DNA of 64,000 bases from Sphingomonas bisphenolicum (GTDB lineage: Bacteria; Pseudomonadota; Alphaproteobacteria; Sphingomonadales; Sphingomonadaceae), in the NCBI RefSeq assembly GCF_024349785.1, contig NZ_AP018818.1, forward strand, positions 685,001 to 749,000, written 5' to 3'. This document shows, piece by piece, positions 9,668 through 44,390 of this stretch. Under the pieces are notes generated by a model. It saw only the letters and a list, made by a program, of their open reading frames with translations, was not told the origin of the DNA and made no database searches. Position numbers and translations under genes: made by a program. Positions within the stretch are counted from its first letter, which is position 1; the number at the start of each line of letters is the position of its first letter.

Positions 9668-10243
9668 ATGTTTCATTCAGCCCTTCCGTCCCGCATCCCC
9701 GGCGGCAGCGATCTTTCGCTGTTGCTCGACCAGCTCTCCCATTGCTGCTCGCGGCCGCGATACGCCTTCATGCTGCTGACGCTGATCGCGGACGTGGCCC
9801 GACCGGACGGCAGCGCAGGGCCGGAGGTCCGGGTGGGCGACGGGCTGGTCCCGCTACGTGACTGGCTATGCGATGCGCTGACGCCGATGGGCCACCGCGA
9901 TCCACGCCGCATGGCGCTGGTGGAGCGGGTGCGCGACGAGTTGCGCAAGGACATGAAGTTGACCGGCGACACCCTGACTGACGATGTGCAGGTGCAGGAA
10001 GAAGTGCGCAACCGCGTGCGCGCGTCGGGCAAGACCAATCTCAGCCGGGCCGCGTCGGAACTGGTCAAGGCCGGCCTGCTCAAGCGCCATTATCAGGGCT
10101 ATGGCGTCGATCATCTCAATCGCGGCGCACAGCGCCAAGCGGTATATACGCTCACCGGCCGCGCCCGCGTGCTCATCGGTACGCCGGCCGCGCCACGACG
10201 ACTGGCCGCCCCACCCCGGCAGGGCGACCTGTTCGCCCATTAA
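9668..10243 (+). CDS. Conserved protein of unknown function, winged-helix-like
   Basis: A 191-residue soluble basic protein. I chose the ATG at 9668 (MFHSALPSRIPGG) because the upstream in-frame sequence runs through the inverted-repeat block and reads like non-coding DNA. The C-terminal half (NLSRAASELVKAGLLKRHYQGY followed by QRQAVYTLTGRA) has the rhythm of a winged-helix fold with a recognition helix and wing, so DNA binding is plausible. I do not recognise a named family. The paired inverted repeats just upstream could be its own binding sites (inference). Its stop overlaps the convergent SDR gene by four bases. Confidence 0.6.
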   Translation: MFHSALPSRIPGGSDLSLLLDQLSHCCSRPRYAFMLLTLIADVARPDGSAGPEVRVGDGLVPLRDWLCDALTPMGHRDPRRMALVERVRDELRKDMKLTGDTLTDDVQVQEEVRNRVRASGKTNLSRAASELVKAGLLKRHYQGYGVDHLNRGAQRQAVYTLTGRARVLIGTPAAPRRLAAPPRQGDLFAH

Positions 10244-11142
10244 GCGCGTTCGCGCGCCTCGCGCCGGGCCTTGGCATAATTGTCACGACGCATCTTTTCG
10301 AAGCCAGTGCGCTGGGCGAAGCCGGCATCTTCAGGATAGTCGCGGAAATCGGCGAGTATCTCTTCAAACACCGTCGCCAGTTCGTCACGAAATTCGGGGT
10401 GGGGGAAGATGTGGAAACGGTTCTCTCGTACTGCTTCCAACGTGCGCGCTGCGATGACGTCCGGCTCCATGCCGAACTGGTGCAACTGTTCCAGCCGCCC
10501 GACGGCCGCGCTGTCCACTGGCTTCGCACCACCGCTGAGCGCGGATGGCCGCACTTCGTCGCTCGCATAGATATGGCTCTTCACCAGGCCGGGGCAGAGC
10601 ACGGACACGCCGATACCGTGCGGCGCCAGGCTGTAGCGCAGGGATTCGCTCATCCCGCGCACCGCGAATTTGGTGGTGTTGTAGATGCCGGGCGCGCCGC
10701 CGCACAGGAAACTCGCCATCGACGCCGTATTGACGATATGACCGCCCTGCCCCAGCGCCTTCATCCGCGGCGCAAAGGTCATTACGCCGTTGACGACGCC
10801 GTGCAGATTGACGCCCATCACCCAGTCCCAATCGTCATAGCTGGACTCGTCGATGGTCTGGAACAGGTTGATGCCGGCATTGTTGAAGACCAGGCTGACC
10901 GGCCCCAGCGCCTTCTCCGCCCTGTCGGCCGCCTCGGCGAAACCTGTCCGCGATGCGACATCGAGTTGGACAGCTATGACGCTCTGATTGTCGAGCGTCC
11001 TGACCGCGGCGGCCAGCGCATCTTCTCTTATATCGGCGATCGCGACCTTGCACCCTTGCGCCAGCAGGGCGCGGGCCAGACCCAGACCGATGCCATTGGC
11101 GCCGCCAGTCACGAAGGCGGTGCGTCCTGCAAATTCGAGCAT
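10240..11142 (-). CDS. SDR-family NAD(P)-dependent dehydrogenase, LigD/LigL-like
   Basis: A 300-residue short-chain dehydrogenase. The Rossmann motif TGGANGIGLG lies at about 12-21, with ADIRED as the cofactor-specificity strand end, NNAGIN, the catalytic serine in NTASM and YNTTK as the Tyr-x3-Lys pair. The long C-terminal tail (FHIFPHPEFRDEL onward) matches the layout of sphingomonad Calpha-dehydrogenases, which oxidise the benzylic alcohol of beta-aryl-ether dimers. The real substrate is not readable. It is transcribed away from the MFS gene at 11276, and the shared 133-base intergenic region carries one putative MarR-type and one TAACG-type operator. A GGGAG Shine-Dalgarno sequence precedes the ATG. 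Confidence 0.85.
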   Translation of the reverse strand: MLEFAGRTAFVTGGANGIGLGLARALLAQGCKVAIADIREDALAAAVRTLDNQSVIAVQLDVASRTGFAEAADRAEKALGPVSLVFNNAGINLFQTIDESSYDDWDWVMGVNLHGVVNGVMTFAPRMKALGQGGHIVNTASMASFLCGGAPGIYNTTKFAVRGMSESLRYSLAPHGIGVSVLCPGLVKSHIYASDEVRPSALSGGAKPVDSAAVGRLEQLHQFGMEPDVIAARTLEAVRENRFHIFPHPEFRDELATVFEEILADFRDYPEDAGFAQRTGFEKMRRDNYAKARREARERA

Positions 11143-11166
11143 CCCATTCTCCCATGACGATCTTTG

Positions 11167-11178
11167 TAACGAACGTGT
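11167..11178. promoter_or_regulatory. TAACG-type operator, degenerate copy
   Basis: TAACGAACGTGT resembles the TAACG-NN-CGTTA palindrome found in four other promoters of this window, but its second half is imperfect. It lies 24 bases upstream of the SDR start at 11142. No good -35 element sits at the spacing seen for the other copies. Confidence 0.35.
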
Positions 11179-11195
11179 ATTTTTCTCTCGCCATA

Positions 11196-11217
11196 ATCGT
11201 ATAGTTCACTTACAAAT
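11196..11217. promoter_or_regulatory. Putative MarR-type operator, copy 1
   Basis: The right half ACTTACAA matches the consensus of three other sites (12702, 19993, 20703) and the left half TCGTATAG is a weaker match, with the same three-base spacing. It lies between the divergent SDR gene and the MFS gene. Confidence 0.5.
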
Positions 11218-11275
11218 TCGCCAAGCCGAAATTTCATCCCTGTGAACAAAGGGAGAAGTGGAGAGGAGAAGGCCC

Positions 11276-12700
11276 ATGGCCCTGGCACCCGCGCCGATTG
11301 CGACCGATACATTATGGGATGCGGAAGAGGCCGCATCGCCGGATGCCGCCGCATCCGCGCGCCCGCCCCATGCGATGGGTGCCGCCTATTGGGCGCTGTT
11401 CGTCATCATCCTGGCGACGTTCGTCACCTTCTTCGAACAGGTGGTGTTCGCCATGTTGGCGGAGCGGATCAAGGCGGATTTCGGCCTGTCCGATTCGCAG
11501 CTCGGCTTCCTGGCCGGACCCGCCAGCATCATCTGCTATCTGTTCGTCGGCATCCCGCTGGCGCGCCTGGCCGACATCTTCCCGCGCAAGTTCGTGCTGG
11601 CGGGAGGATGCGCGGCGCTAGGCATCATCACTTCATTAGGCGGCATCGCGCAGAGTTTCGGCCAGTTCGTCGGCACCCGCGTCTTCCTGGCTGCAGGCGG
11701 ATCGGCCCATGCGCCGTCCTCCTATTCGCTGCTGGCCGACGCCTTCCCTCCGCGCATCCTGACCCGCGCCTTCGCCCTGCTGCAATTCGGCTTCATCGGC
11801 GGCACCACACTCGGCCCGGTAATCGGAGGCATGTTGATCTCCCATGCGGTGGGCTGGCCGCCAACCCAGCATGGCGGCCTTACCATATTGGGCTGGCAAT
11901 GGCTGATGATCTGGCTGGGCCTGCCAGCCCTGTTCGTCGCCCTCCTGTTCCTGACAGTCAAGGAACCGCCGCGCCAGGCGCCCGCCGCCGACTCCATCAC
12001 GCCGCCCGTTCAAGCCTCGCTGAGCCGCCGCATCCTGACCTTCACCGGCTTGGACGCCGCCAGGGCGATCCATGCCAAGCGCCGCGTCTATTATCCGCTG
12101 TTCGCCGGACTGGCGCTGAGCGCGATCGAGGTGTTCGGCCTGCAATTCTGGCGTGTCCCCTTCATGATCCGCACCTATGGCTGGAACGAGGCGCAGATCG
12201 GCGCGGTGATGGGATCGATGACCCTGGTCGCGTCGCTCACCGGCCTGCTGCTGGGCGGCATCTTCGTCGAATGGCTGGCCAAGCGCCACGCCGACGCCAA
12301 TGTCCGCGCCGCCGCCATCTTCTTCGGCTGCGTCACCATCTGCGCCATCCTCGCGCCCTTGATGCCCAATGGCTATGCGTCGCTGGCCGTATCCAGCATC
12401 GGCGCGATGTTCGGCATGGCCGGGGCCGTCCCGCAAAATGCCGCGATCCAGCGCGTTGCGCCCAATGCGATGCGGGGCCAGGTGACGGCGATCTACCTCT
12501 TCATGTTCACCTTCTTCGGCGCGATGGGCAGCTTCCTGGTGGGCCTGGTGCAGGACTATATCGTCGGCGATCCCAGCCAGCTCTGGAAGTCGCTGGTGAT
12601 GACCGCCGGCGTGCTGCTGCCGATCGCGACGTTCTGCATGATCCGCGCCATCCGTCCCTATCGCGAGGAAGTGGAGCGACTGGCTGCGGAAGCCGTTTAA
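11276..12700 (+). CDS. MFS transporter
   Basis: A 474-residue major facilitator protein with about 12 membrane segments split by a central loop near residues 230-265. The motif-A region between segments 2 and 3 reads GIPLARLADIFPRK. The ATG at 11276 is preceded by GGAGAGGAGAA at good spacing; an in-frame GTG at 11258 lies in that Shine-Dalgarno stretch and is less likely. It is the first gene of a run of transporter, NTF2-like protein, aldehyde dehydrogenase, LigW and transporter, so it probably imports an aromatic acid or dimer (inference). The MFS fold is certain and the substrate is not. Confidence 0.85.
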   Translation: MALAPAPIATDTLWDAEEAASPDAAASARPPHAMGAAYWALFVIILATFVTFFEQVVFAMLAERIKADFGLSDSQLGFLAGPASIICYLFVGIPLARLADIFPRKFVLAGGCAALGIITSLGGIAQSFGQFVGTRVFLAAGGSAHAPSSYSLLADAFPPRILTRAFALLQFGFIGGTTLGPVIGGMLISHAVGWPPTQHGGLTILGWQWLMIWLGLPALFVALLFLTVKEPPRQAPAADSITPPVQASLSRRILTFTGLDAARAIHAKRRVYYPLFAGLALSAIEVFGLQFWRVPFMIRTYGWNEAQIGAVMGSMTLVASLTGLLLGGIFVEWLAKRHADANVRAAAIFFGCVTICAILAPLMPNGYASLAVSSIGAMFGMAGAVPQNAAIQRVAPNAMRGQVTAIYLFMFTFFGAMGSFLVGLVQDYIVGDPSQLWKSLVMTAGVLLPIATFCMIRAIRPYREEVERLAAEAV

Positions 12701-12701
12701 T

Positions 12702-12720
12702 CTGTAAGTATTACATACAA
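12702..12720. promoter_or_regulatory. Putative MarR-type operator, copy 2
   Basis: CTGTAAGT-ATT-ACATACAA is a near-perfect inverted repeat with a three-base centre. It starts two bases after the MFS stop and ends 17 bases before the ATG of the NTF2-like gene, which suggests an internal regulated promoter. Confidence 0.6.
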
Positions 12721-12737
12721 TGATAGGAGAGCAAATT

Positions 12738-13496
12738 ATGTCCGACATCGACCGTATCGCCCGCCTGGAACAGAGCGTCGCCGACCTTGGCACCCGCCTG
12801 CAACGGCGCGAGGATGAGCTGGACGTGCGCAAATTGCAGCATCTCTACGGCTACCTGATCGACAAATGCCTCTATAACGAAACCGCCGACCTGTTCACCG
12901 AGGATGGCGAAGTGCGCTTCTTCGGCGGCGTCTGGCGCGGCCAGGCAGGTATTCGCCGCCTCTATGTCGAACGCTTCCAGGCGCGCTTCACCCATGGCAC
13001 CAACGGTCCGATCGATGGCTTCCTGCTCGACCATCCGCAATTGCAGGATATCGTCGACATCGATGCAGACGGCGTCACGGCCCATGCCCGCGCCCGGTCG
13101 ATGATGCAGGCTGGCCGGCACAAGGATTATGCCGACCCCTCCAACCCGATGCTCGGCGCGCGCCAATGGTGGGAGGGCGGCATCTACGAAAATACCTACA
13201 AGAAGGTGGACGGCATCTGGCGCATCCAGATCCTGAACTACATGCCGCAATGGCATGCCGATTTCGACCAGGGCTGGGCCAATACGCCAGCCGAATATGT
13301 GCCTTTCCCCAAGATCACCTATCCCGAAGACCCGACCGGGCCGGACGCGCTGATCGAGGATCACTGGCTGTGGCCGACGCACAAGCTGGTGCCGTTCCAC
13401 ATGGTGCATCCGGTGACGGGCAAGGAAATCGTCGCCGAACGCTGGCAGGGCGATATCGACCGCGAACGGGCCGCGCGCGAAGCGGTGAGCGCCTGA
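12738..13496 (+). CDS. NTF2/SnoaL-like protein, candidate LdpA/PcfL-type gamma-formaldehyde lyase
   Basis: A 252-residue protein that starts with a short coiled stretch (about 1-30) and continues with an NTF2-like fold (about 30-165: LQHLYGYLIDKCLYNETADLF, GEVRFFGG, IWRIQILNYMPQW). An AGGAGA precedes the ATG at 12738. NTF2-like proteins of about this size in sphingomonads (LdpA, PcfL) remove formaldehyde without a cofactor from diarylpropane or phenylcoumaran dimers to give lignostilbenes. I infer a similar role from three facts: the size, the operon with LigW, and the operator shared with a lignostilbene dioxygenase at 18491. I cannot align it to LdpA here, so a different NTF2 activity remains possible. 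Confidence 0.6.
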   Translation: MSDIDRIARLEQSVADLGTRLQRREDELDVRKLQHLYGYLIDKCLYNETADLFTEDGEVRFFGGVWRGQAGIRRLYVERFQARFTHGTNGPIDGFLLDHPQLQDIVDIDADGVTAHARARSMMQAGRHKDYADPSNPMLGARQWWEGGIYENTYKKVDGIWRIQILNYMPQWHADFDQGWANTPAEYVPFPKITYPEDPTGPDALIEDHWLWPTHKLVPFHMVHPVTGKEIVAERWQGDIDRERAAREAVSA

Positions 13497-13500
13497 ACCC

Positions 13501-14928
13501 ATGGCCTATCCCGACCTCTATCTGATGATCGATGGCCAGCGGCTGTCGGGCGGCGGGCGACGGACCCACAAGGTCGTCAACCCCGCCACCGGCGAGGCGA
13601 TCGCGGACCTGCCGCTGGCCGATGCGGCGGACCTCGACGCGGCGCTGGCGGCGGCGCAGCGCGGCTTCCATCGTTGGCGCGATTCGACGCCCCATGAGCG
13701 GGCGGCCGTGCTGCAAGGCGCGGCCCGGCTGATGGTCGAGCGGCAGGAGGCACTGGCCCGCGTCGCCACGCTGGAGCAGGGCAAGACGCTGGCCGAAGCA
13801 CGCATCGAAGTGATGATGAATGTCGGCCTGTTCAACTTTTACGCCGGCGAAGTCTTTCGTCTCTACGGCCGGGCGCTGGTACGTCCGGCCGGGCAGCGAT
13901 CGACCGTTACCAAGGAGCCGGTCGGTCCGGTCGCCGCCTTCGCGCCATGGAATTTCCCGCTCGGCAATCCCGGCCGCAAGCTCGGTGCGCCGATCGCGGC
14001 GGGATGTTCGGTCATCCTGAAGGCGGCGGAGGAAACGCCTGCGTCCGCGCTGGGGGTGCTGCAATGCCTGCTCGACGCAGGGCTGCCCGGCGATGTGGCG
14101 CAGGCGGTGTTCGGGGTGCCCGACGAAGTGTCGCGCCATTTGCTCGGCTCCCCCATCATCCGCAAGATGAGCTTCACCGGCTCCACCGTCGTCGGCAAGC
14201 ATCTGGCGAAATTGGCGGCGGAGGATTGCAAGCGCACGACGATGGAGCTGGGCGGCCATGGCCCGGTGCTGATCTTCGCCGATGCCGATATCGACAAGGC
14301 GCTCGATACGGTGGTGGCGGGCAAATATCGCAATGCCGGGCAGGTGTGCGTATCGCCGACGCGCTTCATCGTGGAGGCGGGCGTCCATGATCGCTTCCTT
14401 GCCGGCTTTGTCGAGCGCGCGCAAAAGGTGACGGTCGGCGACGGCGCGGCGGCCGGCAGCGTCATGGGACCGATGGCCAACGCCCGGCGTCTCGACGCGA
14501 TGGACCGATTGATCGGCGATGCGGTGGCCAAGGGCGCGCGCCTCGAAACCGGCGGCGAACGGATCGGCAATGCCGGCTATTATTTCGCGCCGACCGTGCT
14601 GACGGCCACGCCGCTGGACGCCGCCATCATGAATGAGGAGCCGTTCGGCCCCGTCGCGCTCATCAACGCCTATACGGACGAGGCAAGCATGATCGCGGAG
14701 GCCAACCGCCTGCCCTATGGCCTCGCCGCCTATGCCTGGACCAGCGATGCCGCGCGCCAGCGCCGGGTTGGGCGGCAGATCGAAGCCGGGATGGTTGGCA
14801 TCAACACGGCGATGATCGGCGGGTCGGATTCGCCGTTCGGCGGGGTCAAATGGTCAGGTCACGGCGCGGAAGACGGTCCGGAAGGAATCGACGCCTGCCT
14901 CGTCACAAAAGCCATTCACGAAGGATAA
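13501..14928 (+). CDS. NAD(P)-dependent aldehyde dehydrogenase
   Basis: A 475-residue ALDH with the oxyanion region PWNFPLG, the cofactor motif FTGSTVVG, the general base E249 in MELGGHGP and the catalytic C283 in GQVCVSPTRF. EPFGP and the C-terminal FGGVKWSGHG are present. It looks closest to succinate-semialdehyde or aromatic-aldehyde dehydrogenases. It lies between the NTF2-like gene and ligW with gaps of four and three bases. Oxidising the formyl group of a cleaved lignostilbene to a carboxylate would supply LigW (inference); the sequence alone does not fix the substrate. Confidence 0.9.
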   Translation: MAYPDLYLMIDGQRLSGGGRRTHKVVNPATGEAIADLPLADAADLDAALAAAQRGFHRWRDSTPHERAAVLQGAARLMVERQEALARVATLEQGKTLAEARIEVMMNVGLFNFYAGEVFRLYGRALVRPAGQRSTVTKEPVGPVAAFAPWNFPLGNPGRKLGAPIAAGCSVILKAAEETPASALGVLQCLLDAGLPGDVAQAVFGVPDEVSRHLLGSPIIRKMSFTGSTVVGKHLAKLAAEDCKRTTMELGGHGPVLIFADADIDKALDTVVAGKYRNAGQVCVSPTRFIVEAGVHDRFLAGFVERAQKVTVGDGAAAGSVMGPMANARRLDAMDRLIGDAVAKGARLETGGERIGNAGYYFAPTVLTATPLDAAIMNEEPFGPVALINAYTDEASMIAEANRLPYGLAAYAWTSDAARQRRVGRQIEAGMVGINTAMIGGSDSPFGGVKWSGHGAEDGPEGIDACLVTKAIHEG

Positions 14929-14931
14929 GCC

Positions 14932-15987
14932 ATGACGCATGAACTGAAGACGGGCGGCGACCGCGGCTATCTGCGCATCGCGACGGAGGAAGCCTTCGCC
15001 ACGCGCGAACAGATCGACGCTTATCTGCGCATGTTGCGCGACGGAACGGCCGACCGGGGCATGGTGTCGCTGTGGGGCTTTTACGGCCAGTCGCCGTCGC
15101 AGCGCGCGACCCAGATCATCGATCGGCTGCTCGACCTGGGCGACCAGCGATTGGCGGATATGGACGCGACCGGGATCGACGTCGCGATATTGTCGCTGAC
15201 CTCGCCGGGCGTGCAACCACTGCTGGACGTCAACGAGGCCAAGGCGATGGTTGCCCGCGCCAACGATCATCTTGCCGAGCGTTGCGCCGCCCATCCCACG
15301 CGTTTCGTGGGCATGACATCGATCGCACCGCAGGATCCGGACTGGTCCGCCGCCGAAATCCGGCGGGGCGCTGGCGATCTGGGGTTCAAGGGAGTGATGG
15401 TCAACAGCCATACTCAGGGCGAATATCTGGACGATGCCAAGTTCGACCCGATCTTCCGCGCGCTCGCCGATACCGGCCAGCCGCTCTATATCCATCCTTC
15501 AACCCCGCCCGACGCGATGATCGGGCCGATGCTGGACGCCGGGCTGGACGGCGCGATCTTCGGCTTTGGCGTGGAGACGGGGATGCACCTGCTGCGGCTC
15601 ATCACCATCGGTATTTTCGACCGCTATCCCGACCTGCAGATCATCGTCGGCCATATGGGCGAGGCGCTGCCCTATTGGCTCTACCGGCTCGACTATATGC
15701 ATCAGGCGGGCGTGCGATCACAGCGCTACGAACGGATGAAGCCGCTCAAAAAATCGATCCACGACTATATGCGGTCCAATGTCTGCGTCACGACCAGCGG
15801 CATGGCGTGGGAGCCGGCGATCACATTCGCGCAAAAGGTGTTGGGCGAAGACAGGGTCATGTATGCGATGGACTATCCCTATCAATATGTGGCGGATGAA
15901 GTGCGCACCCATGACCTGCTGGACATGTCCGACGAGGCCAGGCGCAAGCTGATGCAGACCAATGCCGAGCGCGTGTTCGCCCTGTGA
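14932..15987 (+). CDS. ligW: 5-Carboxyvanillate decarboxylase
   Basis: A 351-residue amidohydrolase-fold enzyme. The N-terminus (GGDRGYLRIATEEAFATRE) and the four metal or active-site residues fall at E19, H188 (YIHP), H241 (GHMGE) and D314 (AMDYPYQYV), the same numbers as I recall for Novosphingobium LigW. LigW removes the 5-carboxyl group of 5-carboxyvanillate to give vanillate, using Mn(II) and no redox. 5-Carboxyvanillate comes from 5,5'-biphenyl (DDVA) dimers and from beta-5 phenylcoumaran dimers after stilbene cleavage. No LigX/LigY set is beside it here. Its neighbours are an aldehyde dehydrogenase and an NTF2-like protein, which favours the beta-5 route (inference). The next gene overlaps its stop. 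Confidence 0.9.
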   Translation: MTHELKTGGDRGYLRIATEEAFATREQIDAYLRMLRDGTADRGMVSLWGFYGQSPSQRATQIIDRLLDLGDQRLADMDATGIDVAILSLTSPGVQPLLDVNEAKAMVARANDHLAERCAAHPTRFVGMTSIAPQDPDWSAAEIRRGAGDLGFKGVMVNSHTQGEYLDDAKFDPIFRALADTGQPLYIHPSTPPDAMIGPMLDAGLDGAIFGFGVETGMHLLRLITIGIFDRYPDLQIIVGHMGEALPYWLYRLDYMHQAGVRSQRYERMKPLKKSIHDYMRSNVCVTTSGMAWEPAITFAQKVLGEDRVMYAMDYPYQYVADEVRTHDLLDMSDEARRKLMQTNAERVFAL

Positions 15988-17588
15988 CGATCATGACCCC
16001 TTCGCGCGCCACGGCCTATTATGCGCTGGCGCTGGTGGCCGGAACCAATCTCGTCAGCCTGCTCGACCGCAATATCCTCGCCATCCTCGCCCCCGCGATC
16101 AAGGCGGACCTGAAGATCGGCGACGCGGAAATGGGGCTGCTTTACGGCACCGTCTTCGCGCTCTTCTACGCGCTGTTCTCGCTGCCGCTGGGGCGACTGG
16201 CGGACGGGTGGGTCAGGACGAAGCTGCTGGCGATCACGATCGGCTTCTGGTCGCTCGCCACCGGCGGGGCGGCGCTGGCCACCGGCTTCTTCACGCTGAT
16301 GCTGTCGCGCCTGTGCGTCGGCATTGGGGAAGCGGCGTCGCAGCCGGCCGGCACCAGCCTGACCTATGATTATTTCCCGCGCGAAAAGCGCGGCATGGTG
16401 ATGGCGGTCATGGCCGCGGCGATCGCGATCGGGCTTGGCGGATCGCTCATCATCGGCGGCATGGCCGCGCAGTGGTGGGACGCGCGCTATGCGGCAGGCG
16501 CGGCACCGCTAGGCCTGAAGGGCTGGCAATTCGCCTTTGCCGTCGCGGCGACGCCCGGTTTCCTCATCGCCTTCCTGATGAGCCGCCTGCCCGAACCGCG
16601 ACGCGGCGTCATGGATGGCATCCCGACCGCGCATGATCCGCATCCTTTCCGCGCCAGCCTGAACGTGCTGGGCGCTGTGACGCCTGGCTTTCATTGGCTC
16701 AGCCTGGCGCGCACGCGGGCGACCGGGGGGGACTGGGCGCTCAATATCGGCCTGCTGGCGCTGATCGTCGTCGCCATGCTGTTGGCGATCGGCTGGGCGG
16801 AAGCGTTCTCGCCGCGACCGCCGCTGCTGCTGGCCGGTATCGCGATCAGTCCGCATGTGGTGCAGTGGAGCGTGATCGGCTTCGGCGCCTTCGTCATCGC
16901 CAACCTGCTTCAGAATCTGAAAGGGCGCGATCCGGTCGCCTTCGCCCTCATCACCCGTAATCCATCGCTGCTGCTGTGCATCGCGGCGGGGGCGTTGCAG
17001 AGCGTCATCAACTACGGCGTGATGGGCTTCACGCCCTCCTTCCTGATGAAAGGCTATGGCCTGTCGCCGGCCGACACCGGGTTGCAATTCGGCCTGCTGT
17101 CCGCCGGGCTGGGCGTCGTCGGGCCGCTGATCGCCGGGCCATTGTCCGACCGGATCGGCGCGCATCGCCTGTCGCGCCGGGTATGGGTCGCGCTGGTCGC
17201 CATGGGCCTGTCGCCGCTCTTGGCGCTCTGGGTCTATCGCGCCCCGGACGCTGGCGACTTCTACCTGCGCTTCACCCTCTACAGCCTGATCCTGACCATG
17301 TGGATGCCGCCGCTCTATGCGGTATTGTTCGAACAGGTGTTGCCGCGGATGCGCGGGCTGACCGTCAGCCTCTATATCGTCGTGTCGACCATATTCGGCC
17401 TGGGCATCGGTCCCTATGCCGTGGGGATGATCAGCGATGCGCGCGGCGGCGACCTGGGCGGGGCGATCCTGTCGATCAACTGGGTCGCGCCGCCGCTGGT
17501 GCTGATCCTGCTGGTGCTGCTGTGGCGAGTCGAACGCGACCATGCCAGCCTGCTCCCCCGCGCCCGCGCTGCAGGGGAGCAAGTATAG
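15984..17588 (+). CDS. MFS transporter
   Basis: A 534-residue major facilitator protein with about 12 membrane segments, motif-A-like SLPLGRLADGWVRTK near residues 65-80, and an extended central region (about 205-310) with two added hydrophobic stretches. The GTG at 15984 overlaps the ligW stop (GTGA); an ATG at 15993 is the alternative. It closes the ligW operon. It could import an aromatic acid or export a product, and the direction is not readable. It was probably followed directly by the convergent dioxygenase gene before the insertion sequence arrived. Confidence 0.82.
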   Translation: MTIMTPSRATAYYALALVAGTNLVSLLDRNILAILAPAIKADLKIGDAEMGLLYGTVFALFYALFSLPLGRLADGWVRTKLLAITIGFWSLATGGAALATGFFTLMLSRLCVGIGEAASQPAGTSLTYDYFPREKRGMVMAVMAAAIAIGLGGSLIIGGMAAQWWDARYAAGAAPLGLKGWQFAFAVAATPGFLIAFLMSRLPEPRRGVMDGIPTAHDPHPFRASLNVLGAVTPGFHWLSLARTRATGGDWALNIGLLALIVVAMLLAIGWAEAFSPRPPLLLAGIAISPHVVQWSVIGFGAFVIANLLQNLKGRDPVAFALITRNPSLLLCIAAGALQSVINYGVMGFTPSFLMKGYGLSPADTGLQFGLLSAGLGVVGPLIAGPLSDRIGAHRLSRRVWVALVAMGLSPLLALWVYRAPDAGDFYLRFTLYSLILTMWMPPLYAVLFEQVLPRMRGLTVSLYIVVSTIFGLGIGPYAVGMISDARGGDLGGAILSINWVAPPLVLILLVLLWRVERDHASLLPRARAAGEQV

Positions 17589-17602
17589 GTTTCTGGCTTT
17601 AC

Positions 17603-17666
17603 GCGATTTCCGAGTCGTCAGATGATTAGCTTCGCCAAACTGCGTTTCCATCTGACTAGAAATCGC
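17603..17666. terminator. Imperfect hairpin downstream of the ligW operon
   Basis: GCGATTTC (17603-17610) and GTCAGATG (17617-17624) pair with CATCTGAC (17649-17656) and GAAATCGC (17659-17666), with an internal asymmetric bulge. It sits after the MFS stop and just left of the insertion sequence, and probably served as a terminator between convergent genes. Confidence 0.45.
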
Positions 17667-17725
17667 TCTAAGGGCTGTGGGGATTTAGGATTCCCCTTTT
17701 GCTGGAGTTGTGATTCACACTCTGG

Positions 17726-18094
17726 ATGGATCGCTTTGTACTGACGGACGCCCAATGGGCGCAGATGGAACCGCACTGTCTGGGCAAGATCACCGACCCC
17801 GGACGCAGCGGCAGAAACAACCGGCTGTTCGTGGAGGCAGTGCTGTGGATTGTCCGCACTGGAAGTCCATGGCGCGACCTACCGGCGATGTTCGGCAATT
17901 GGAGCACGGCATTCCGCCGATTTCGCGATTGGCGGGAAGCCGATGTTTTCAAGCGGATTTTCGATGCTCTGTCGGATGAACCCGACATGGAATACGCCAT
18001 GATCGATGCCACCATCGTCAAGGTTCACCGGCACGGCCAGGGCGCAAAAGGGGGACTCAGAGCCAGGCCATTGGTCGTTCCAAAGGAGGCATGA
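17726..18094 (+). CDS. IS5-family transposase, OrfA
   Basis: A 122-residue N-terminal half with the DUF4096-type domain (LTDAQWAQMEP, GRNNRLFVEAVLWIVRTGSPWRDLP) and the first catalytic aspartate in YAMIDATIVKVHRH. The run AAAAGGGGG near 18045-18053 is a -1 frameshift site. Slippage there bypasses the OrfA stop and joins the OrfB frame, giving the complete DDE transposase. Confidence 0.88.
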   Translation: MDRFVLTDAQWAQMEPHCLGKITDPGRSGRNNRLFVEAVLWIVRTGSPWRDLPAMFGNWSTAFRRFRDWREADVFKRIFDALSDEPDMEYAMIDATIVKVHRHGQGAKGGLRARPLVVPKEA

Positions 18095-18477
18095 CGACCA
18101 AGATCCTGGCTTTGACCGATGCGCTGGGCAACCTTGTCCGCTTCCGCTTGATGCCCGGCCACCGCTTCGACACGGTTGGCGTTGCTCCACTCATCGACGG
18201 CATCAAGTTCGGCGCACTGCTCGCTGACAAGGCTTTCGACAGCAACGATATCGTCGCCGATCTCAACGAGCGGGGTGCAAAAATCGTCATCTCGCAGCAC
18301 CCGCGACGCGCCAGACCCATCCCGCTCGACGCCGAAATGTACAAGTGGCGCCACCTCATCGAAAACTTCTTCTGCAAACTCAAGGAATTCAAGCGTATCG
18401 CCATGCGCGCCTGCAAAACCGATCGCAGCTTCGAGGCCATGATCCACCTCGCTGCAGCCGTCATCAATTCCCGGTGA
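18091..18477 (+). CDS. IS5-family transposase, OrfB
   Basis: A 128-residue C-terminal half, read in the -1 frame relative to OrfA and overlapping it by four bases. LLADKAFDSNDI holds the second catalytic aspartate, and the Y-x2-R-x3-E-x6-K type signature (KWRHLIENFFCKLKEFK) holds the catalytic glutamate. It is probably made mainly as an OrfA-OrfB fusion. Confidence 0.86.
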   Translation: MTTKILALTDALGNLVRFRLMPGHRFDTVGVAPLIDGIKFGALLADKAFDSNDIVADLNERGAKIVISQHPRRARPIPLDAEMYKWRHLIENFFCKLKEFKRIAMRACKTDRSFEAMIHLAAAVINSR

Positions 18478-18490
18478 ATCCCCACAAGCC

Positions 18491-19960
18491 TTAGGCCGCC
18501 AGCCCGATCTGGTCGGCCGTCGCCCAATTGCCGTGCAGGCCAAACCGCAATCTTATCGGGATACGGATTTCCGCAATCGGTCCCTTGGCGATGTCCAGCG
18601 CGTCGAACAGCAGCAGATCGCTGCGATGCTCCTCCAGCCGGTTGCACACTTGCACGATCCAGCCGTCACCTTCCGCAGCATTGGGGCTGCGCGGGATGAA
18701 GCAGGGTTCCTGCAATGACGACAGCGGCCCGCACCACCATGTCTGCTCCACGCCGGTCCGGTGATCGATCAGGCCCAGCGTGTTCATCAGCATCCCCGAC
18801 GGACTGCCGCCCTTCAGTTCCACCGGCCTGGTCGGGTCGATCACCAGCAGCCAGCCATAGCGATAGGGCAGGCCGGTCTGACGATCGTCGATCCGGGGAA
18901 ATTCGCCCATCATATTGGTCAACCGCTGCACGCTGGCGAAATCCTCGCCGTTGGACGCCATGTCGACGGTCCAGCGGGTCAGGAAACTCGCCGATTCCGG
19001 CCCGTTGAACGGAGCGCCATGGATGTCGGGGAAGAAGGGGAACATATTGTTCTTCGCTTCGGGCGTGTCGAAATGAATTTTCGTGCCCTCCTGAAAGGCG
19101 TTCATGACATGGCTGGCGAAGCAATTGTCGCGCTTGAACCAGCGTATGTCCGCCGCGGTCGCATCGGCCCGGCGCGGCAGCACGCCCAGATAGACCGGCA
19201 GCGTGGCGTCGAAACCGAAATGCGGCAGCCCCTGCTCCAGCCGTTCCCAGTTGGACGTGCTGGGCACGACATGGAACAGCGCATAATCGGGCGTGATCGC
19301 GAAGTCGTGCATCATCGCATAATAAGGGAGTTCGAACCACAATTCCTGCTTCAACACCCCGTCCGGCGACACGACATAATAAGTCATGTCGCGCGTCAGC
19401 ACCCCCTTGGCCGCATAGCCAAAGGCGATCATGTCGCCGGTTGCAGGGTCTATCTTAGGATGGGCGGTGAAGGTCTGCCCGGTCATCGCGCCATCGAACC
19501 ATGTATAGCCGTCCGTCTCCAGCGTCGCCGGGTCCATCACCAACGCCGGACTATCTTCTTTCAGCGCATAGAGTTTCCCGCCATGGATGAAGGCGGTGGT
19601 GTTGGCGGTGCCGCGTATCTTGCCCTGCACCGCCTCGTCGTCGGTCAGCGGATTGCGATAGGCGCCGAACAAAGCCTTGCCCGCTTCATGCTCCAGCTTC
19701 CACTTGTCGGTCTTCGCCCAGCGTTGGCGGAAATCGACCTGGCCGTCATGAAAGCGGAACATGGTGATCATGCCATCGCCGTTGAAGGCGATGTCGTCGC
19801 CCAGCCGGGGCGGAAATTGCGGATCGGGTTGCACCCGGTAGAAGGCGCCGTCCAGTTCGGGCGGCACCGTCCCCTTTACATCCAGATCGGCGATGTCCGC
19901 CTCGATCCGCGAGGGCGTGTTGAAACCCGTGAAAGACGCTGTGTCCGGAAAATGCGCCAC
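18491..19960 (-). CDS. Lignostilbene / carotenoid-type cleavage dioxygenase, copy 1
   Basis: A 489-residue non-haem iron oxygenase with the four iron-binding histidines H167 (TAHP), H218 (MHDF), H284 (SHVMNAF) and H476 (LHGNW). These enzymes split the central double bond of 4-hydroxystilbenes into two aldehydes. I chose the GTG at 19960 because a GGGAGAGG lies just upstream and because the paralogue at 48552 begins at the same place in the alignment (MPAYPQTIHF against VAHFPDTASF). The alternative ATG at 20005 would lie in the promoter next to the MarR operator. An insertion sequence ends exactly in the stop codon and supplies a new TAA, so the protein is probably unchanged. Confidence 0.88.
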   Translation of the reverse strand: MAHFPDTASFTGFNTPSRIEADIADLDVKGTVPPELDGAFYRVQPDPQFPPRLGDDIAFNGDGMITMFRFHDGQVDFRQRWAKTDKWKLEHEAGKALFGAYRNPLTDDEAVQGKIRGTANTTAFIHGGKLYALKEDSPALVMDPATLETDGYTWFDGAMTGQTFTAHPKIDPATGDMIAFGYAAKGVLTRDMTYYVVSPDGVLKQELWFELPYYAMMHDFAITPDYALFHVVPSTSNWERLEQGLPHFGFDATLPVYLGVLPRRADATAADIRWFKRDNCFASHVMNAFQEGTKIHFDTPEAKNNMFPFFPDIHGAPFNGPESASFLTRWTVDMASNGEDFASVQRLTNMMGEFPRIDDRQTGLPYRYGWLLVIDPTRPVELKGGSPSGMLMNTLGLIDHRTGVEQTWWCGPLSSLQEPCFIPRSPNAAEGDGWIVQVCNRLEEHRSDLLLFDALDIAKGPIAEIRIPIRLRFGLHGNWATADQIGLAA

Positions 19961-19992
19961 GTCTGATCCTCTCCCTGTTCTGGTTGAAGATA

Positions 19993-20011
19993 TTGTATGT
20001 GACACTCACAT
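19993..20011. promoter_or_regulatory. Putative MarR-type operator, copy 3
   Basis: TTGTATGT-GAC-ACTCACAT lies between the divergent dioxygenase (start 19960) and marR-type (start 20064) genes, where it could repress both and give autoregulation. Confidence 0.6.
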
Positions 20012-20063
20012 TTTTTCAAGGCCAAGGATTGACGGGCCAGCGCTTACTGCGCACACTGTTACT

Positions 20064-20528
20064 ATGAATACCATGAATGACCTGGAACCGCTCGACCTCT
20101 TCCCCGACCCTCGCCTCAGCGGCATAGACGGCCTGGTCGGTTTTCATATTCGACTGGCAAGCGCCGCCGTCTATCAACATTTCACCGAAACCTTCAGCGA
20201 CCTCGGCCTCACCCAGAAGCAGGTTGCCGTCCTCTGGCTGATCGAGGATCAGCCCGGCATCGCTCAAGCGGATATCGGCCGCCGCTTGAAAATGGACCGG
20301 GCGAGCGTGATGGCCATCGTCAATCGAATGCAGGACCGCGGTTTTCTGACCCGCGGCGCGTCCGCGCAGGATCGCCGCCGCCAGACATTAAGCCTGACCG
20401 ACGGTGGCCGCGACTCGCTGACGCAGGCCCGCGCCTGCATCGCCGAGCATGAGAATTGGCTGAAGGCGCGGTTCAGCCCGGCCGAAACCGCGATGCTGGT
20501 GGAACTGCTGCGGCGCGTCTACGTCTGA
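20064..20528 (+). CDS. MarR-family transcriptional regulator
   Basis: A 154-residue MarR protein. Dimerisation helices flank a winged helix-turn-helix with LTQKQVAVLWLIEDQPGIAQADIGRRL, the recognition helix DRASVMAIVNRMQDRGFL and the wing tip SAQDRRRQTLSLT. MarR proteins usually repress and are released by phenolic ligands. The gene is divergent from a lignostilbene dioxygenase and sits between it and a TonB receptor gene. Near-palindromes of one sequence lie in both promoters and in two others to the left, so it is the natural candidate for their regulator (inference). The ATG at 20064 was chosen by family length; one at 20073 is also possible. Confidence 0.88.
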   Translation: MNTMNDLEPLDLFPDPRLSGIDGLVGFHIRLASAAVYQHFTETFSDLGLTQKQVAVLWLIEDQPGIAQADIGRRLKMDRASVMAIVNRMQDRGFLTRGASAQDRRRQTLSLTDGGRDSLTQARACIAEHENWLKARFSPAETAMLVELLRRVYV

Positions 20529-20702
20529 ACGCACCATTGGCGGAACAAAGGATTTTCAGGGCTTTCTCTCTCCGCCCCCGATCATCCTGTCACTGCCACT
20601 ACCACCAATAGAAACAACAGCATTATTTGCCCTCTCGCAATGAAGGCAAATAGTGCGACAATGTTCGTTGCGAGGTCGATGAGGCTCTTGCATCGGATAA
20701 AA

Positions 20703-20721
20703 TTGTATGTCTTACTAACAA
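20703..20721. promoter_or_regulatory. Putative MarR-type operator, copy 4
   Basis: TTGTATGT-CTT-ACTAACAA lies 80 bases upstream of the TonB receptor start, in the 273-base gap 20529-20801. Nothing else in that gap is recognisable apart from a good Shine-Dalgarno (AGGAGAGG) just before 20802. Confidence 0.6.
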
Positions 20722-20801
20722 TCGACGCACAGCAGCGTCACAGGCGGGTCACGTTCGGACAGGACGGATCTCAAAAGCCGGATTAGGAGAGGGGATTACC
20801 C

Positions 20802-23309
20802 ATGCAACACGATCTTCGTGCAATGATGTCGCGCGCCCTGTTGGCGTCAGCCTCCATCCTCGCAATCACTACACCAGCGTCGGCGCAATCATCGGCCCAA
20901 CCGCCCGCGGCCGCCCCGCAGGCCGCCGAGCAGGATGGCGCGTCGCAAAGTTCGGTCGCCGATATCGTCGTTACCGCCCAGTTCCGCGCCCAGCGGTTGC
21001 AGGACACGCCGATCTCCATCACCGCCGTCGGCGCCGCCGAGCTGGAGGCCAAGAGTCAGACCAACCTGGCGCAGATGGCCGATTCCGCGCCCAACGTGTC
21101 GTTGAAGCCGCAGGGCGCCTCTTTCGGCCCGTCCATCACCGCCTCGATCCGCGGTGTCGGCCAGAACGACTTCAACCCCGCTTATGAACCGGGCGTCGGC
21201 ATCTATATCGACGATGTCTATTATCCGCAGTTGACCGGCGCGGTGTTCGAACTGCTCGACCTCGACCGGGTCGAAATCCTGCGCGGGCCTCAGGGCACGC
21301 TGGCCGGCCGCAACGCCGAGGGCGGCGCGATCAAGCTCTATTCCAAGCGTCCGTCGGGCGATGGCGGCGGCTTCGTTGAGGTCAATTACGGCATCCGCAA
21401 CCGGATCGGTATTCGCGCCGCCGCCGATTTCGGCATCACCGACACGCTCGCCGTCCGCATCTCCGGCGTCGCCAAGCAGCAGGAAGGGTTCGTCGACCGG
21501 ATCGATTATGGCTGCGCCAATCCCGGCAGCGGCATTCCCTCCACCCAGCCCGCAGGCGACTGCACCATCAGCAAGCTGGGCGGCGTGGGCTATCAGGCGA
21601 TCCGCGCCATCGCCTTCTGGGAACCCAGCGACAAGCTGGATGTCACGGTCATCGGCGACTATACCCGCGACGAACATACGATCGCCGGCGAAGTGCTGAT
21701 CGCGACCAACCCCGTCAATTCGCCCAACACCAATCCGGCGCCGGGCGTCGTCTATGACGACCGCTTCATCTGCGGTCGTTATTGCAACTATATCGGCACC
21801 GGTCAGCCCGCCGGCGTGTGGACACCGCCGATCCCGGTCGATCCCTTCGGCGCGGCGGGCACGCCGCTGGCTGCGACGCAGGGCACCGACCGCAGCCTCT
21901 ACAAGGGCTGGGGCGTGTCGGGCCAGATCAACTATGCGCTGTCCGATGCGTTCAAATTGTCGTCCATCACCGGATACCGCACCTTCAACACCCAGTTCGA
22001 TTCCGATGACGATATATCCCCCGCCAATATCGGTTTCGGTCGCAACTATCTGGAAAATTGGAGCTTCAGCCAGGAAGTCCGGCTGAACGCGGAGCTGGGC
22101 GACAATCTCAACGCCACGGTCGGCGGCTATTATTTCAAGCAGAAGTCGACCTATGACTCGCTCCAGGACATCCGCTACGTCCCGGTCTATCCGCTGCAAT
22201 TCCGCCAGCCCGACCCGACCAAGGCGGAGGCCAAGGCGGCGTTCGCCCATCTGTCCTGGAAGCCGATCGACCGGCTGACCTTGAGCGGCGGCCTGCGCTA
22301 CACGACGGAAAGCAAGGACCAGACCTATTATCGCCTGAACTATGACGGGACGGTCAACCGCTTCCTCGATCCGGTCGGCGCGGCCTATGGCATCGGCTAT
22401 TCGGGCGCGGACACGCTCGACTATAATGGCAATGGCAACACCACCGAAACCGTGACGGCACTGTCGGGCCTTACCGCCCATTATAGCGCCAAGCGCTGGG
22501 ACTATCGCATCGCGGCCGACTATCGCCTGACCGACAGCCTGATGGTCTATGGATCGGTATCCACCGGCTTCAAGGGCGGCGGCTCCAACCCGCGCCCTTT
22601 CAACACGCAGCAGGTCATCGCCTTCCGCCCGGAAAAGCTGACCGCCTATGAAATCGGCTTCAAGAGCGACTTCTTCAATCGCCGGGTCCGGTTGAACGCC
22701 GCGGCCTTCATCAACGACTATATCGATATCCAGATCCCGGTGCTGACCTGCCCCGGCGCACCTTGCGCCGCGCGGCTCAACGCCGGCGATGCGCGGGTCA
22801 AGGGGTTCGAGGCGGAACTGTCCGCCTACCCGATCGACGGCCTCGCGATCGACGCCTCGATCAGCTATCTCGACTTCAAATACAAGGCGAGCAGCCTCGA
22901 TCCGGCAGCGGCCTATCCTACCAATCCGGGCGGCGTGTCGGCCAATGATCCGCCGGTGTCGCCACCCTGGAAGTTCAGCGTCGGCGCGCAATATAAGATC
23001 GACCTGGACAAGGCCGGCAGCCTGACCCCGCGCTTCGACGTCACCTATGAAGACAAGAAGTTCGGTGGCGCCGCAGTCATCAGTGGCGTCCGCGTCCTGA
23101 ACTTCGTGCCTGCCTACACGCTCGCCAATGCGCGGCTGACCTGGCAGAATGCGGACGAGGATCTCGACGTCTCGTTCGAAGTCACCAACCTCTTCGACAA
23201 ATATTATTATCTCTCCGTGTTCGACCTGCGCGGCGCGGGCGCGGGCGTGCGCAAGGCGCGCCCCGGCAATCCGCGCGAATGGGCGATCACGGTGAAGAAG
23301 AAATTCTAA
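20802..23309 (+). CDS. TonB-dependent outer-membrane receptor, copy 1
   Basis: An 835-residue receptor with a signal peptide ending near ASA (about 27), a TonB-box-like DIVVTAQ near 53-59, a plug domain (SITAVGAAELEAKSQTNLAQ through LRGPQGTLAGRNAEGGAIKL) and a 22-strand barrel ending in the typical C-terminal phenylalanine (KKKF). It is the first gene of a run with two GSTs, a CoA ligase, a quinohaemoprotein dehydrogenase and an amidohydrolase, and it has a MarR-type operator upstream. Such receptors import aromatic dimers in sphingomonads, so a lignin-derived dimer is a reasonable guess for its substrate. It is a close structural relative of the receptor at 44442. Confidence 0.92.
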   Translation: MQHDLRAMMSRALLASASILAITTPASAQSSAQPPAAAPQAAEQDGASQSSVADIVVTAQFRAQRLQDTPISITAVGAAELEAKSQTNLAQMADSAPNVSLKPQGASFGPSITASIRGVGQNDFNPAYEPGVGIYIDDVYYPQLTGAVFELLDLDRVEILRGPQGTLAGRNAEGGAIKLYSKRPSGDGGGFVEVNYGIRNRIGIRAAADFGITDTLAVRISGVAKQQEGFVDRIDYGCANPGSGIPSTQPAGDCTISKLGGVGYQAIRAIAFWEPSDKLDVTVIGDYTRDEHTIAGEVLIATNPVNSPNTNPAPGVVYDDRFICGRYCNYIGTGQPAGVWTPPIPVDPFGAAGTPLAATQGTDRSLYKGWGVSGQINYALSDAFKLSSITGYRTFNTQFDSDDDISPANIGFGRNYLENWSFSQEVRLNAELGDNLNATVGGYYFKQKSTYDSLQDIRYVPVYPLQFRQPDPTKAEAKAAFAHLSWKPIDRLTLSGGLRYTTESKDQTYYRLNYDGTVNRFLDPVGAAYGIGYSGADTLDYNGNGNTTETVTALSGLTAHYSAKRWDYRIAADYRLTDSLMVYGSVSTGFKGGGSNPRPFNTQQVIAFRPEKLTAYEIGFKSDFFNRRVRLNAAAFINDYIDIQIPVLTCPGAPCAARLNAGDARVKGFEAELSAYPIDGLAIDASISYLDFKYKASSLDPAAAYPTNPGGVSANDPPVSPPWKFSVGAQYKIDLDKAGSLTPRFDVTYEDKKFGGAAVISGVRVLNFVPAYTLANARLTWQNADEDLDVSFEVTNLFDKYYYLSVFDLRGAGAGVRKARPGNPREWAITVKKKF

Positions 23310-23321
23310 GCCTCCCCCTCG

Positions 23322-23373: not shown

Positions 23374-24141
23374 ATGACCGACGTCACACTCTATCACTGG
23401 GAACCCAATGCCAATTCGGGCAAGCCGATGCTGGCGCTGTTCGAAAAGGGCGTCGCGTTCGACAGCCATTATCTCGACCTGCTGAATTTCGACCAGCACC
23501 GGCCCGATTATCTGGCGGTCAATCCGCTCGGCACTATCCCGGCCATGACCCATGGCAAGCTGGTGCTGACCGAATCCACCGCCATCATGGAATATGTGGA
23601 TGAGGCGTTCGACGGCCCGCGCCTGATGCCCGCCGACCCGGTCGACCAGTGGCGCACGCGCTGGTGGATGAAGTTCATGGACCAGTGGCTCGCCCCCAGC
23701 TTCTCGATGATCGGCTGGAGCGTCTTCGTCGGCCCCTCGGTGCGGCAGAAAGACCCCGCGGAACTGGAAGCAGCGATCGACCGCATTCCGATGCCTGAAC
23801 GGCGCGTCGCATGGCGCAAGGCGATCAACGGCGCCTTTTCGGCAGAGGAGATGACGGAATCGCAGCGCCGCGTCGCCCTCGGCATCGGCTATCTGGAACA
23901 GGCGCTGGGACAGCGGGAATGGCTGGCGTCGGACGAATATGGTCTGGCCGACATCAACGGCTTCAACCTCGCCTACGCCATGCCCTTGTCGCAGCCGCAG
24001 CTCTGCAATGACGAACTGACGCCCAATATCATGCGCTGGCTGCGCGCCATTTATGCGCGCCCCGCGACCCGCGCCTGCTGGGCGTTGGGCCGCACCGACC
24101 TCGCCCGCCGCATCTCCCTGCTCGAAAGCGAACCCGCATGA
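23374..24141 (+). CDS. Glutathione S-transferase, LigF/BaeA-like
   Basis: A 255-residue GST. The thioredoxin-like N-terminal domain reads LYHWEPNANSGKPMLALFEKG, NPLGTIPAM and the glutathione-binding LTESTAIMEY; the helical C-terminal domain includes WLASDEYGLADINGFNLAY. The first segment resembles LigF (ANSLKP in LigF, ANSGKP here), which suggests the beta-etherase branch: glutathione attacks the beta carbon of a Calpha-ketone dimer and releases the aryl group. Its start is 64 bases after the TonB stop, and the next gene, a divergent GST, overlaps it by ATGA. The pair recalls the heterodimeric BaeA/BaeB etherase of Novosphingobium (inference). Confidence 0.78.
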   Translation: MTDVTLYHWEPNANSGKPMLALFEKGVAFDSHYLDLLNFDQHRPDYLAVNPLGTIPAMTHGKLVLTESTAIMEYVDEAFDGPRLMPADPVDQWRTRWWMKFMDQWLAPSFSMIGWSVFVGPSVRQKDPAELEAAIDRIPMPERRVAWRKAINGAFSAEEMTESQRRVALGIGYLEQALGQREWLASDEYGLADINGFNLAYAMPLSQPQLCNDELTPNIMRWLRAIYARPATRACWALGRTDLARRISLLESEPA

Positions 24142-24887: not shown

Positions 24888-24891
24888 TGAG

Positions 24892-26454: not shown

Positions 26455-26495
26455 GCGAGATGCAGACATCCGCTCGACAAATGGAGAGGAAGAGG

Positions 26496-44385: not shown

Positions 44386-44390
44386 CGCAA

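Follow-up and report, generated by a model that had tools for sequence, protein, structure and literature searches.

The stretch analysed here (the window) comprises 64,000 nucleotides of Sphingomonas bisphenolicum (positions 685,001 to 749,000 of contig NZ_AP018818.1, assembly GCF_024349785.1). Between positions 10240 and 23309 it carries genes of a lignin dimer pathway, a gene for a MarR-type regulator and four copies of a 19-bp palindromic motif. An earlier note on this DNA had taken the region for a complete stilbene-type lignin dimer pathway under a single MarR repressor. Our results indicate that it is very probably a PcfL-type beta-5 (phenylcoumaran) pathway under a local MarR repressor of the DesR/Saro_0803 family. 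The features of the region are as follows.

10240..11142, minus strand: short-chain dehydrogenase/reductase (SDR; adh_short), 65% identical to Novosphingobium aromaticivorans locus L100 5820-6752
11197..11215: candidate operator TCGTATAGTTCACTTACAA between SDR and MFS1, its position conserved at SDR/MFS1 in relatives
11258..12700, plus strand: major facilitator superfamily transporter 1 (MFS1; MFS_1), kept beside pcfL in relatives
12702..12720: candidate operator CTGTAAGTATTACATACAA, 17 bp 5' of pcfL
12738..13496, plus strand: PcfL ortholog, NTF2/SnoaL_4 protein, putative gamma-formaldehyde lyase
13501..14928, plus strand: FerD-type aldehyde dehydrogenase (Aldedh), 79% identical to L100 10281-11711
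14932..15987, plus strand: LigW decarboxylase, 75% identical to L100 12517-13572, the ligW position of N. aromaticivorans
15984..17588, plus strand: major facilitator superfamily transporter 2 (MFS2; MFS_1), conserved in relatives
18491..19957, minus strand: LsdD/NOV1-type lignostilbene dioxygenase (LSD), start inferred from homologues
19993..20011: candidate operator TTGTATGTGACACTCACAT between lsdD and marR, in the same place as the nov1 operator
20064..20528, plus strand: MarR protein of the DesR/Saro_0803 family (NF053777), predicted repressor
20703..20721: candidate operator TTGTATGTCTTACTAACAA, 5' of the TonB receptor gene
20802..23309, plus strand: TonB-dependent receptor (Plug and barrel), 47% identical to the ldpA-adjacent receptor of N. 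aromaticivorans

Profile and structure matches confirmed all gene assignments made previously (SDR, MFS, SnoaL_4/NTF2, Aldedh, MarR, TonB, LigW and LSD). LigW matched the 5-carboxyvanillate decarboxylase entries 4inf and 4qrn of the Protein Data Bank (PDB) over 350 residues (E 6e-187), and the LsdD-type protein matched PDB entries 6xm6 (E 3e-258) and 5j53 (E 4e-256; 73% identity to the 5j53 sequence). Two gene starts were corrected, that of the NTF2 gene to 12738 and, by homology, that of the LSD gene to about 19957; the operator therefore lies upstream of the LSD gene and not inside it. Between MFS2 and lsdD (17726-18477, plus strand) are two adjoining reading frames resembling what we take to be an IS5-type transposase. 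The SDR is the apparent ortholog of the gene counted as Saro_0793, the second gene before MFS1 when counting back from pcfL = Saro_0796; Saro_0793 appears as ligO in a review (PMC12997858).

The NTF2 protein has a SnoaL_4 domain (PF13577, 94 bits) and shares 194/246 residues (79%) with PcfL (Saro_0796) vs. 100/233 (43%) with LdpA. The reaction predicted for it is conversion of DC-C to a stilbene with loss of formaldehyde. In a tree of 17 chosen rows, which left out the second NTF2 copies of loci L019 and L078, row L083 and most others, it grouped with PcfL and was split from LdpA at 100/100 support, with a long-branch warning at the split; an earlier 26-row tree (from 79 translated matches plus the window protein) had been made without PcfL. 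Among the columns common to PcfL and LdpA, 91 of 104 were unchanged in the window protein, a count that does not single out active-site positions; PcfL itself has 8 of the 11 LdpA active-site residues (PMC11323797). Solved sequence relatives amounted to only three chain sequences, named SnoaL-like (best E 9e-55). One of the three, 8abt, resembles over the parts compared the second NTF2 protein (L117) of genome G400. G400 is presumed to represent N. aromaticivorans DSM 12444, its dioxygenase being 100% identical to 5j53 and the published residues recurring in its regulator with identical numbering, and the L117 protein is presumed to be LdpA because it is the sole NTF2 match there besides PcfL. 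A search of the window's genome found no second NTF2 homologue.

At the window locus and in relatives pcfL is linked to lsdD, ferD and ligW. Of the loci around 99 NTF2-protein matches, the best 80 were fetched, many of them ended by contig ends; in these best 80 of 99, MFS1 stood directly before the NTF2 gene in 65 (where sequence was sufficient to score) and the divergent LSD|MarR pair was present in 45. Judged by sequence, the window cluster is orthologous to the published PcfL/LsdD/FerD/LigW pathway for beta-5 dimers of N. aromaticivorans DSM 12444 (PMC11323797). The earlier interpretation was partly supported. Kinship of the NTF2 protein with LdpA and PcfL held, with a favourable grouping in the tree, and of the two routes proposed, beta-5 or beta-1, the former was retained and the latter dropped. 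LigW kept its identity, not its proposed substrate, which here is likely 5-carboxyferulate rather than 5-carboxyvanillate (PMC11323797). To call the pathway complete was an overstatement, as dimer side-chain oxidation and the use of ferulate and vanillin need genes outside the region shown; so was the claim that gene order matches reaction order, as lsdD acts between pcfL and ferD and is encoded apart, on the other strand. What goes beyond the earlier note is that the pathway is already published and that the repressor belongs to the DesR/Saro_0803 family.

The MarR gene is divergent from lsdD, with the operator between them, and its product scored 228.8 bits against the NCBIfam model NF053777 ("Saro_0803 family"; cut-off 200). 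Its pocket residues F30, F43, F47 and W61 are all identical to those of Saro_0803, as are the DNA-contact residues K55, R82, R91 and R108; K109 is replaced by R. The protein is 58% identical to DesR of Sphingobium sp. SYK-6, which belongs to NF053777 too (237 bits). Saro_0803 represses nov1 (Saro_0802, lsdD) and is released by resveratrol (PMC10046596). DesR (SLG_12870) adjoins SLG_12860, listed as lsdD in the review PMC12997858; it represses ligM and desB, is released by vanillate and syringate, and its binding was shown at ligM, desB and desR (PMC6888825). For the window MarR we predict operator binding and release by an aromatic compound.

Scanning the window with the pattern TTGTATGTNNNACTTACAA at up to 3 mismatches gave 6 strand-wise matches at 4 places, vs. 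0.04 expected from 100 shuffles. These are the four palindromes reported before, now placed at 11197 (11196 having been off by one), 12702, 19993 and 20703. The whole genome (5,209,012 bases) was scanned by pattern searches, not by matrix. A check for many equal matches elsewhere, as suggested by the earlier note, returned with the same pattern and tolerance only these 4 places, while the reversed control gave 2. With the symmetric form TTGTATGTNNNACATACAA (up to 3 mismatches) 5 places were found, namely 3 window sites and 2 elsewhere (control 1). One of the two outside matches, at C2:766903 (L092), is a weaker copy, TTGTATGTGGATGACACAA, lying by our own reading between two divergent MFS-like genes; it may or may not be a real site. 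The 11197 site is a weak palindrome, yet it is conserved in Sphingobium loci. The lsdD promoter (TTGAAA-16-TACAAT) ranked first among 9 promoter-like matches in the window (4.6 expected), and because its -10-like TACAAT falls inside the 19993 operator, the repressor is proposed to cover the -10 box.

The published operators of Saro_0803 and DesR carry variants of the window motif. The nov1 promoter of G400, TTGTTAGCAATACATACAATATTGC (3 mismatches), contains the palindrome together with the published repeat GCAATA..TATTGC (PMC10046596). Genome G144 has the published DesR repeat IR-R precisely at -76 to -62 relative to a potential desR start, along with a match to IR-M, and for these two reasons we take it to be SYK-6. 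Against the symmetric consensus IR-R and IR-M show 4 and 2 differences in 16 fixed bases, so the SYK-6 sites are looser than the best of the window. SYK-6 has the same MFS1-aldehyde dehydrogenase-LigW-MFS2 ... LSD|DesR cluster (L125-L126). No NTF2 match was found in this cluster, in line with the PhcCDFG route of that strain (PMC12997858), and only two motif sites in its 28 kb scored >14.

Conservation was scored with a matrix built only from the four window sites, a score of 15 or more counting as a site. Sphingobium-like loci had sites at MFS1 (12/12), NTF2 (12/12), LSD|MarR (10/10) and TonB (10/10), and other loci at LSD|MarR (34/35), MFS1 (47/53) and NTF2 (33/63). The background was 14/960 random 160-bp and 23/960 random 260-bp stretches (real sites being included in each set) and 1/750 shuffled NTF2 upstreams. 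Among the 14 of 30 NTF2 misses that were listed, seven scored 12.7-14.1 and seven 4.2 or less. Both half-sites of the palindrome are conserved in relatives. A wider matrix, incorporating sites of both the window and N. aromaticivorans, gave 169 sites scoring >19 in the best 80 of 99 loci, and 166 of them lay near the start of a labelled gene, the labels marking the expected genes; purU|ligM carried 14 of the 169, and ligM is a shown DesR target in SYK-6 (PMC6888825).

Regulator and motif also occur together. Among 397 genomes of the family the regulator was found in 55 (each over the cut-off) and the motif, searched with up to 2 mismatches, in 63. Both were present in 52 genomes, the regulator without the motif in 3, the motif without the regulator in 11, and 331 had neither; the motif was thus present in 52/55 regulator-positive vs. 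11/342 regulator-negative genomes. In 195 genomes of the N. aromaticivorans genus both were found in 81 each (regulator at E 1e-30, 77 over the cut-off; 74/7/7/107 in the same order). The Fisher values of 3e-50 (family) and 8e-37 (genus) are overstated, because the genomes are related. The reversed motif occurred in 27/397 and 11/195 genomes, and NF053777 matched in 0/14 control genomes. The 11 motif-only family genomes have one site each; in the genus, 4 of the 7 motif-only genomes are at most 80% complete, and G503, G520 and G530, with several sites, are at 67-80%. Genome-wide specificity and conserved promoters thus support the single MarR-linked regulon proposed before.

Directly behind the TonB receptor gene lies a beta-etherase operon (23374-29484), to which the regulated set may extend:

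23374..24141, plus strand: BaeA-type beta-etherase subunit, 70% identical to N. aromaticivorans BaeA and 95% to the S. xenophagum locus
24138..24887, plus strand: BaeB-type subunit, 4-bp overlap with baeA, weak LigF match, no Pfam match
24892..26454, plus strand: AMP-dependent acyl-CoA ligase (AMP-binding), 67% identical to the baeAB-linked ligase
26427..28625, plus strand: pyrroloquinoline quinone (PQQ)-dependent alcohol dehydrogenase with a cytochrome c domain (TIGR03075, 635 bits), start uncertain
28616..29484, plus strand: amidohydrolase (Amidohydro_2) overlapping the PQQ gene, 80% identical to the baeAB-linked one, start set by eye

BaeB was assigned by gene position, the overlap being as described for baeAB (PMC6369299). 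BaeAB of S. xenophagum was shown to be active (PMC6369299), and in L015, from the strain of that study, the first glutathione S-transferase (GST) is 95% identical to that of the window. In G400, and at a distance of 350 bases in Rhizorhapis (L061), an operator precedes baeA itself. In the window the operator nearest to baeA is the one before the TonB gene, with none directly before baeA. Terminator-like matches numbered 14 in the stretch vs. 12.2 in shuffles.

Farther downstream, a LigF-type beta-etherase gene (36691-37446, plus strand) encodes a protein 64% identical to a LigF1-type protein of N. aromaticivorans; it was ruled out as a regulon member, having no good operator upstream, and it is followed by an aldehyde-dehydrogenase match at 38317-39711. 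Positions 43342-48552 hold a VanA-type Rieske oxygenase, a second TonB receptor and a second carotenoid-oxygenase/LSD-family gene (47077-48552), possibly another aromatic route.

In G400 the symmetric pattern (up to 3 mismatches) occurred at 12 places, with 0 control places:

ligN/ligO|MFS1
nov1|Saro_0803
TonB gene beside ldpA
LigF-type GST gene, accompanied by a GFA gene
desA (878.7 bits, cut-off 800)
ligM (900 bits, cut-off 580)|purU
folD on the third contig
small gene preceding another folD
formate dehydrogenase gamma-like gene (166 bits, below the cut-off of 198)
another TonB gene
baeA
L119 896, about 3 kb past Saro_0803, without a clear target gene

Sites before pcfL, ldpA and ligE were found by the matrix only, in fetched stretches; the Saro numbers of baeA, baeB, ligE and ligF1 were taken from PMC6369299. 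In N. aromaticivorans one protein matched NF053777 at E 1e-30. Judged from these sites, the operator would unite beta-5, beta-1 and beta-O-4 enzymes, O-demethylases and one-carbon enzymes in this organism. The one-carbon sites lie at L112 5035, L118 5006, L113 5005 and L111 4985 (two folD genes, purU and the formate dehydrogenase-like subunit); they would fit disposal of the formaldehyde and methyl groups freed by PcfL, LdpA, LigM and DesA. Our view of Saro_0803 as the sole stilbene sensor for all these sites was widened because DesR, which controls ligM, was recognised as the ortholog of Saro_0803 in SYK-6.

Three of 4 evolved strains had acquired the same point mutation, 55 bp upstream of ligE within an inverted repeat, and LigE was about 1000-fold up on glucose in the two evolved strains analysed (PMC11837543). 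The predicted ligE operator, at -58 to -40, encloses this published -55 mutation, for which the section of PMC11837543 describing it names no regulator. A second gene, hpvY, had an evolved promoter mutation at -49 (PMC11837543). The idea that this mutation likewise hits an operator was not borne out, no site being present at any of five glucose-methanol-choline oxidoreductase (GMC) genes taken to include hpvY, and L112 5035 was rejected as hpvY, the gene there being folD.

We propose the following mechanism. Without substrate, a repressor dimer would occupy the 19-bp palindrome (TTGTAWGY-N3-RCWTACAA and variants) at the four promoters, covering the -10 box at least at lsdD. The repressor would be released when its aromatic pocket takes up a stilbene intermediate of the pathway (probably the acid DC-S-C) or vanillate derived from it, so that the transporters, PcfL, LsdD, FerD, LigW and the repressor itself would be made, perhaps together with the products of the BaeAB operon that follows the TonB receptor gene. 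The sites, their conservation, the orthology of the genes and the match to published operators are observed here. Inference extends to repressor binding at the individual window sites, to the identity of the natural effector and to transcription continuing from the TonB gene into baeAB; in relatives the enzyme reactions were shown (PMC11323797), as was binding of Saro_0803 at nov1 (PMC10046596).

Several observations weigh against this scheme. The window MarR is only 48% identical to Saro_0803, and the published effectors differ between orthologs. At the threshold used, the NTF2 gene had its own site in only 33 of the 63 non-Sphingobium loci. Within the genus, the 7 genomes with the motif alone account for 18 sites, and G462, at 94% completeness, has 4 of these; either its regulator was missed or lost, or another protein reads the motif. 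Since -10 boxes (TACAAT) and the motif overlap, constraint on the promoter could explain some of the motif's conservation. A terminator-like hairpin of 12 pairs (23321-23351, plus strand) stands in the 64-bp gap between the TonB gene and baeA and argues against full read-through. As to the ligE mutation, the evolved strains have other mutations and it could not be reconstructed in a wild-type background (PMC11837543), and the loci of the five GMC genes of G400 (E 1e-20; taken to include hpvY) had no site scoring >12.

The strongest competing explanation concerns the signal. The repressor might mainly be a sensor of vanillate and syringate like DesR, induction then coming from the end product and not from the stilbene. 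It is 58% identical to DesR and has the same pocket residues, DesR is released by both compounds (PMC6888825), and 14 of the 169 sites in the fetched loci lie at purU|ligM. On the other hand, release of DesR in gel shifts, tested at 0.05-50 mM, was complete only at 50 mM vanillate (PMC6888825), and Saro_0803 responds to resveratrol (PMC10046596). The candidate pathway genes of N. aromaticivorans were also >2-fold higher on DC-A than on vanillin: all five, four of them in two adjacent transcription units, rose to this degree and were costly to fitness when hit, both properties having been the criteria by which they were selected (PMC11323797). We therefore regard this reading as possible but doubtful. 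Because DesR needs 50 mM vanillate, Saro_0803 answers resveratrol and the pocket residues are the same, a stilbene intermediate is rather the probable strong natural signal, with vanillate the less likely candidate.

That another MarR protein, or several, read the motif, so that the sites are not one regulon, is unlikely. MarR proteins form a large family, SYK-6 has the further MarR-type regulators FerC and DesX, and the motif occurs without an NF053777 match in 11 family and 7 genus genomes, including G462 with its 4 sites. Yet the family genomes in question have a single site each, at a rate to be set beside the 27/397 of the reversed motif, 4 of the 7 genus genomes are at most 80% complete, N. 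aromaticivorans has a single NF053777 match (E 1e-30), and DesR and Saro_0803 themselves bind such sites (PMC6888825, PMC10046596). A service of the cluster to a beta-1 (diarylpropane) route with an LdpA-type lyase is very improbable. LsdD-type enzymes also cut lignostilbene, which would suit it, and the only solved relatives are three SnoaL-like chains, one of which reads like N. aromaticivorans LdpA. The 100/100 split from LdpA, the 79% identity to PcfL and the genome search that found no second NTF2 homologue led us to rule this route out, and the linkage to FerD and LigW suits 5-formylferulate, not vanillin alone. Hardly credible is the view that the palindromes are mere conserved promoter sequence or chance: although the 19993 site contains a -10-like TACAAT and two more symmetric-form matches lie elsewhere in the genome, both half-sites are kept, the reader's pattern has no further match in the genome, the motif is in 11/342 genomes without the regulator vs. 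52/55 with it, and published operators coincide with the motif. This view was rejected on the genome, shuffle and co-occurrence controls.

The enzymes and the repressor family are already known. What looks new is that the operator marks whole lignin-dimer programmes, in the window pcfL, lsdD and the TonB gene, to which the N. aromaticivorans set adds ldpA, ligE, ligF, baeA, ligM, desA and one-carbon genes; a link between DesR, Saro_0803 and dimer genes was not found in the openly licensed literature. On balance we lean towards a view in which the DesR/Saro_0803 family governs lignin-dimer use throughout Sphingomonadales as a master repressor, a single MarR protein that senses aromatics and a single 19-bp operator together gating uptake, beta-5 (PcfL, LsdD), beta-1 (LdpA) and beta-O-4 (LigE, LigF, BaeAB, LigN/O) cleavage, O-demethylation (LigM, DesA) and one-carbon disposal (FolD, PurU, formate dehydrogenase). 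Its strong natural signal would be the stilbene intermediate that several dimer pathways share, with resveratrol and vanillate standing in as mimics or fragments of that stilbene, and the window would be a compact single-locus edition of the regulon. Such a regulon would unite the resveratrol biosensor (Saro_0803), the vanillate/syringate regulator (DesR) and the PcfL pathway, which are treated apart in their papers, and for the evolved ligE promoter mutation (PMC11837543) it puts forward a testable candidate regulator. It predicts that loss of one gene, or of one operator, switches on whole dimer pathways, which bears on the conversion of mixed lignin dimers into products.

Among known systems, the closest is the beta-5 pathway of N. 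aromaticivorans (PMC11323797), with orthologous genes in near-identical order and four enzymes 73-79% identical. The window has a single SDR where N. aromaticivorans has two, lacks the extra gene that separates ferD from ligW there, and continues past the regulator with a TonB receptor and baeAB operon; the words regulator, MarR, repressor and Saro_0803 are absent from the main text of PMC11323797. The window MarR resembles Saro_0803 (PMC10046596) in family model, place beside lsdD, pocket, all contacts but one, and operator. The two differ at 48% identity, and nov1 is the site treated in PMC10046596, in whose main text "lignin" does not occur. DesR (PMC6888825) is alike in its 58% identity, its position adjoining an lsdD gene and its operator class; it differs in its known targets (ligM, desB and desR), its effectors vanillate and syringate, and a cluster in SYK-6 without an NTF2 match. 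Phenylpropanone induction is described in another Novosphingobium (PMC10866074). LdpA shares with the window NTF2 protein the NTF2 fold family and the type of reaction (PMC12997858), but is 43% identical and falls into a separate clade. Finally, the heterodimeric beta-etherase BaeAB (PMC6369299) is matched by the window pair in its overlapping genes and in 70% identity to BaeA, whereas the window pair stands behind a TonB gene, with no operator directly before baeA.

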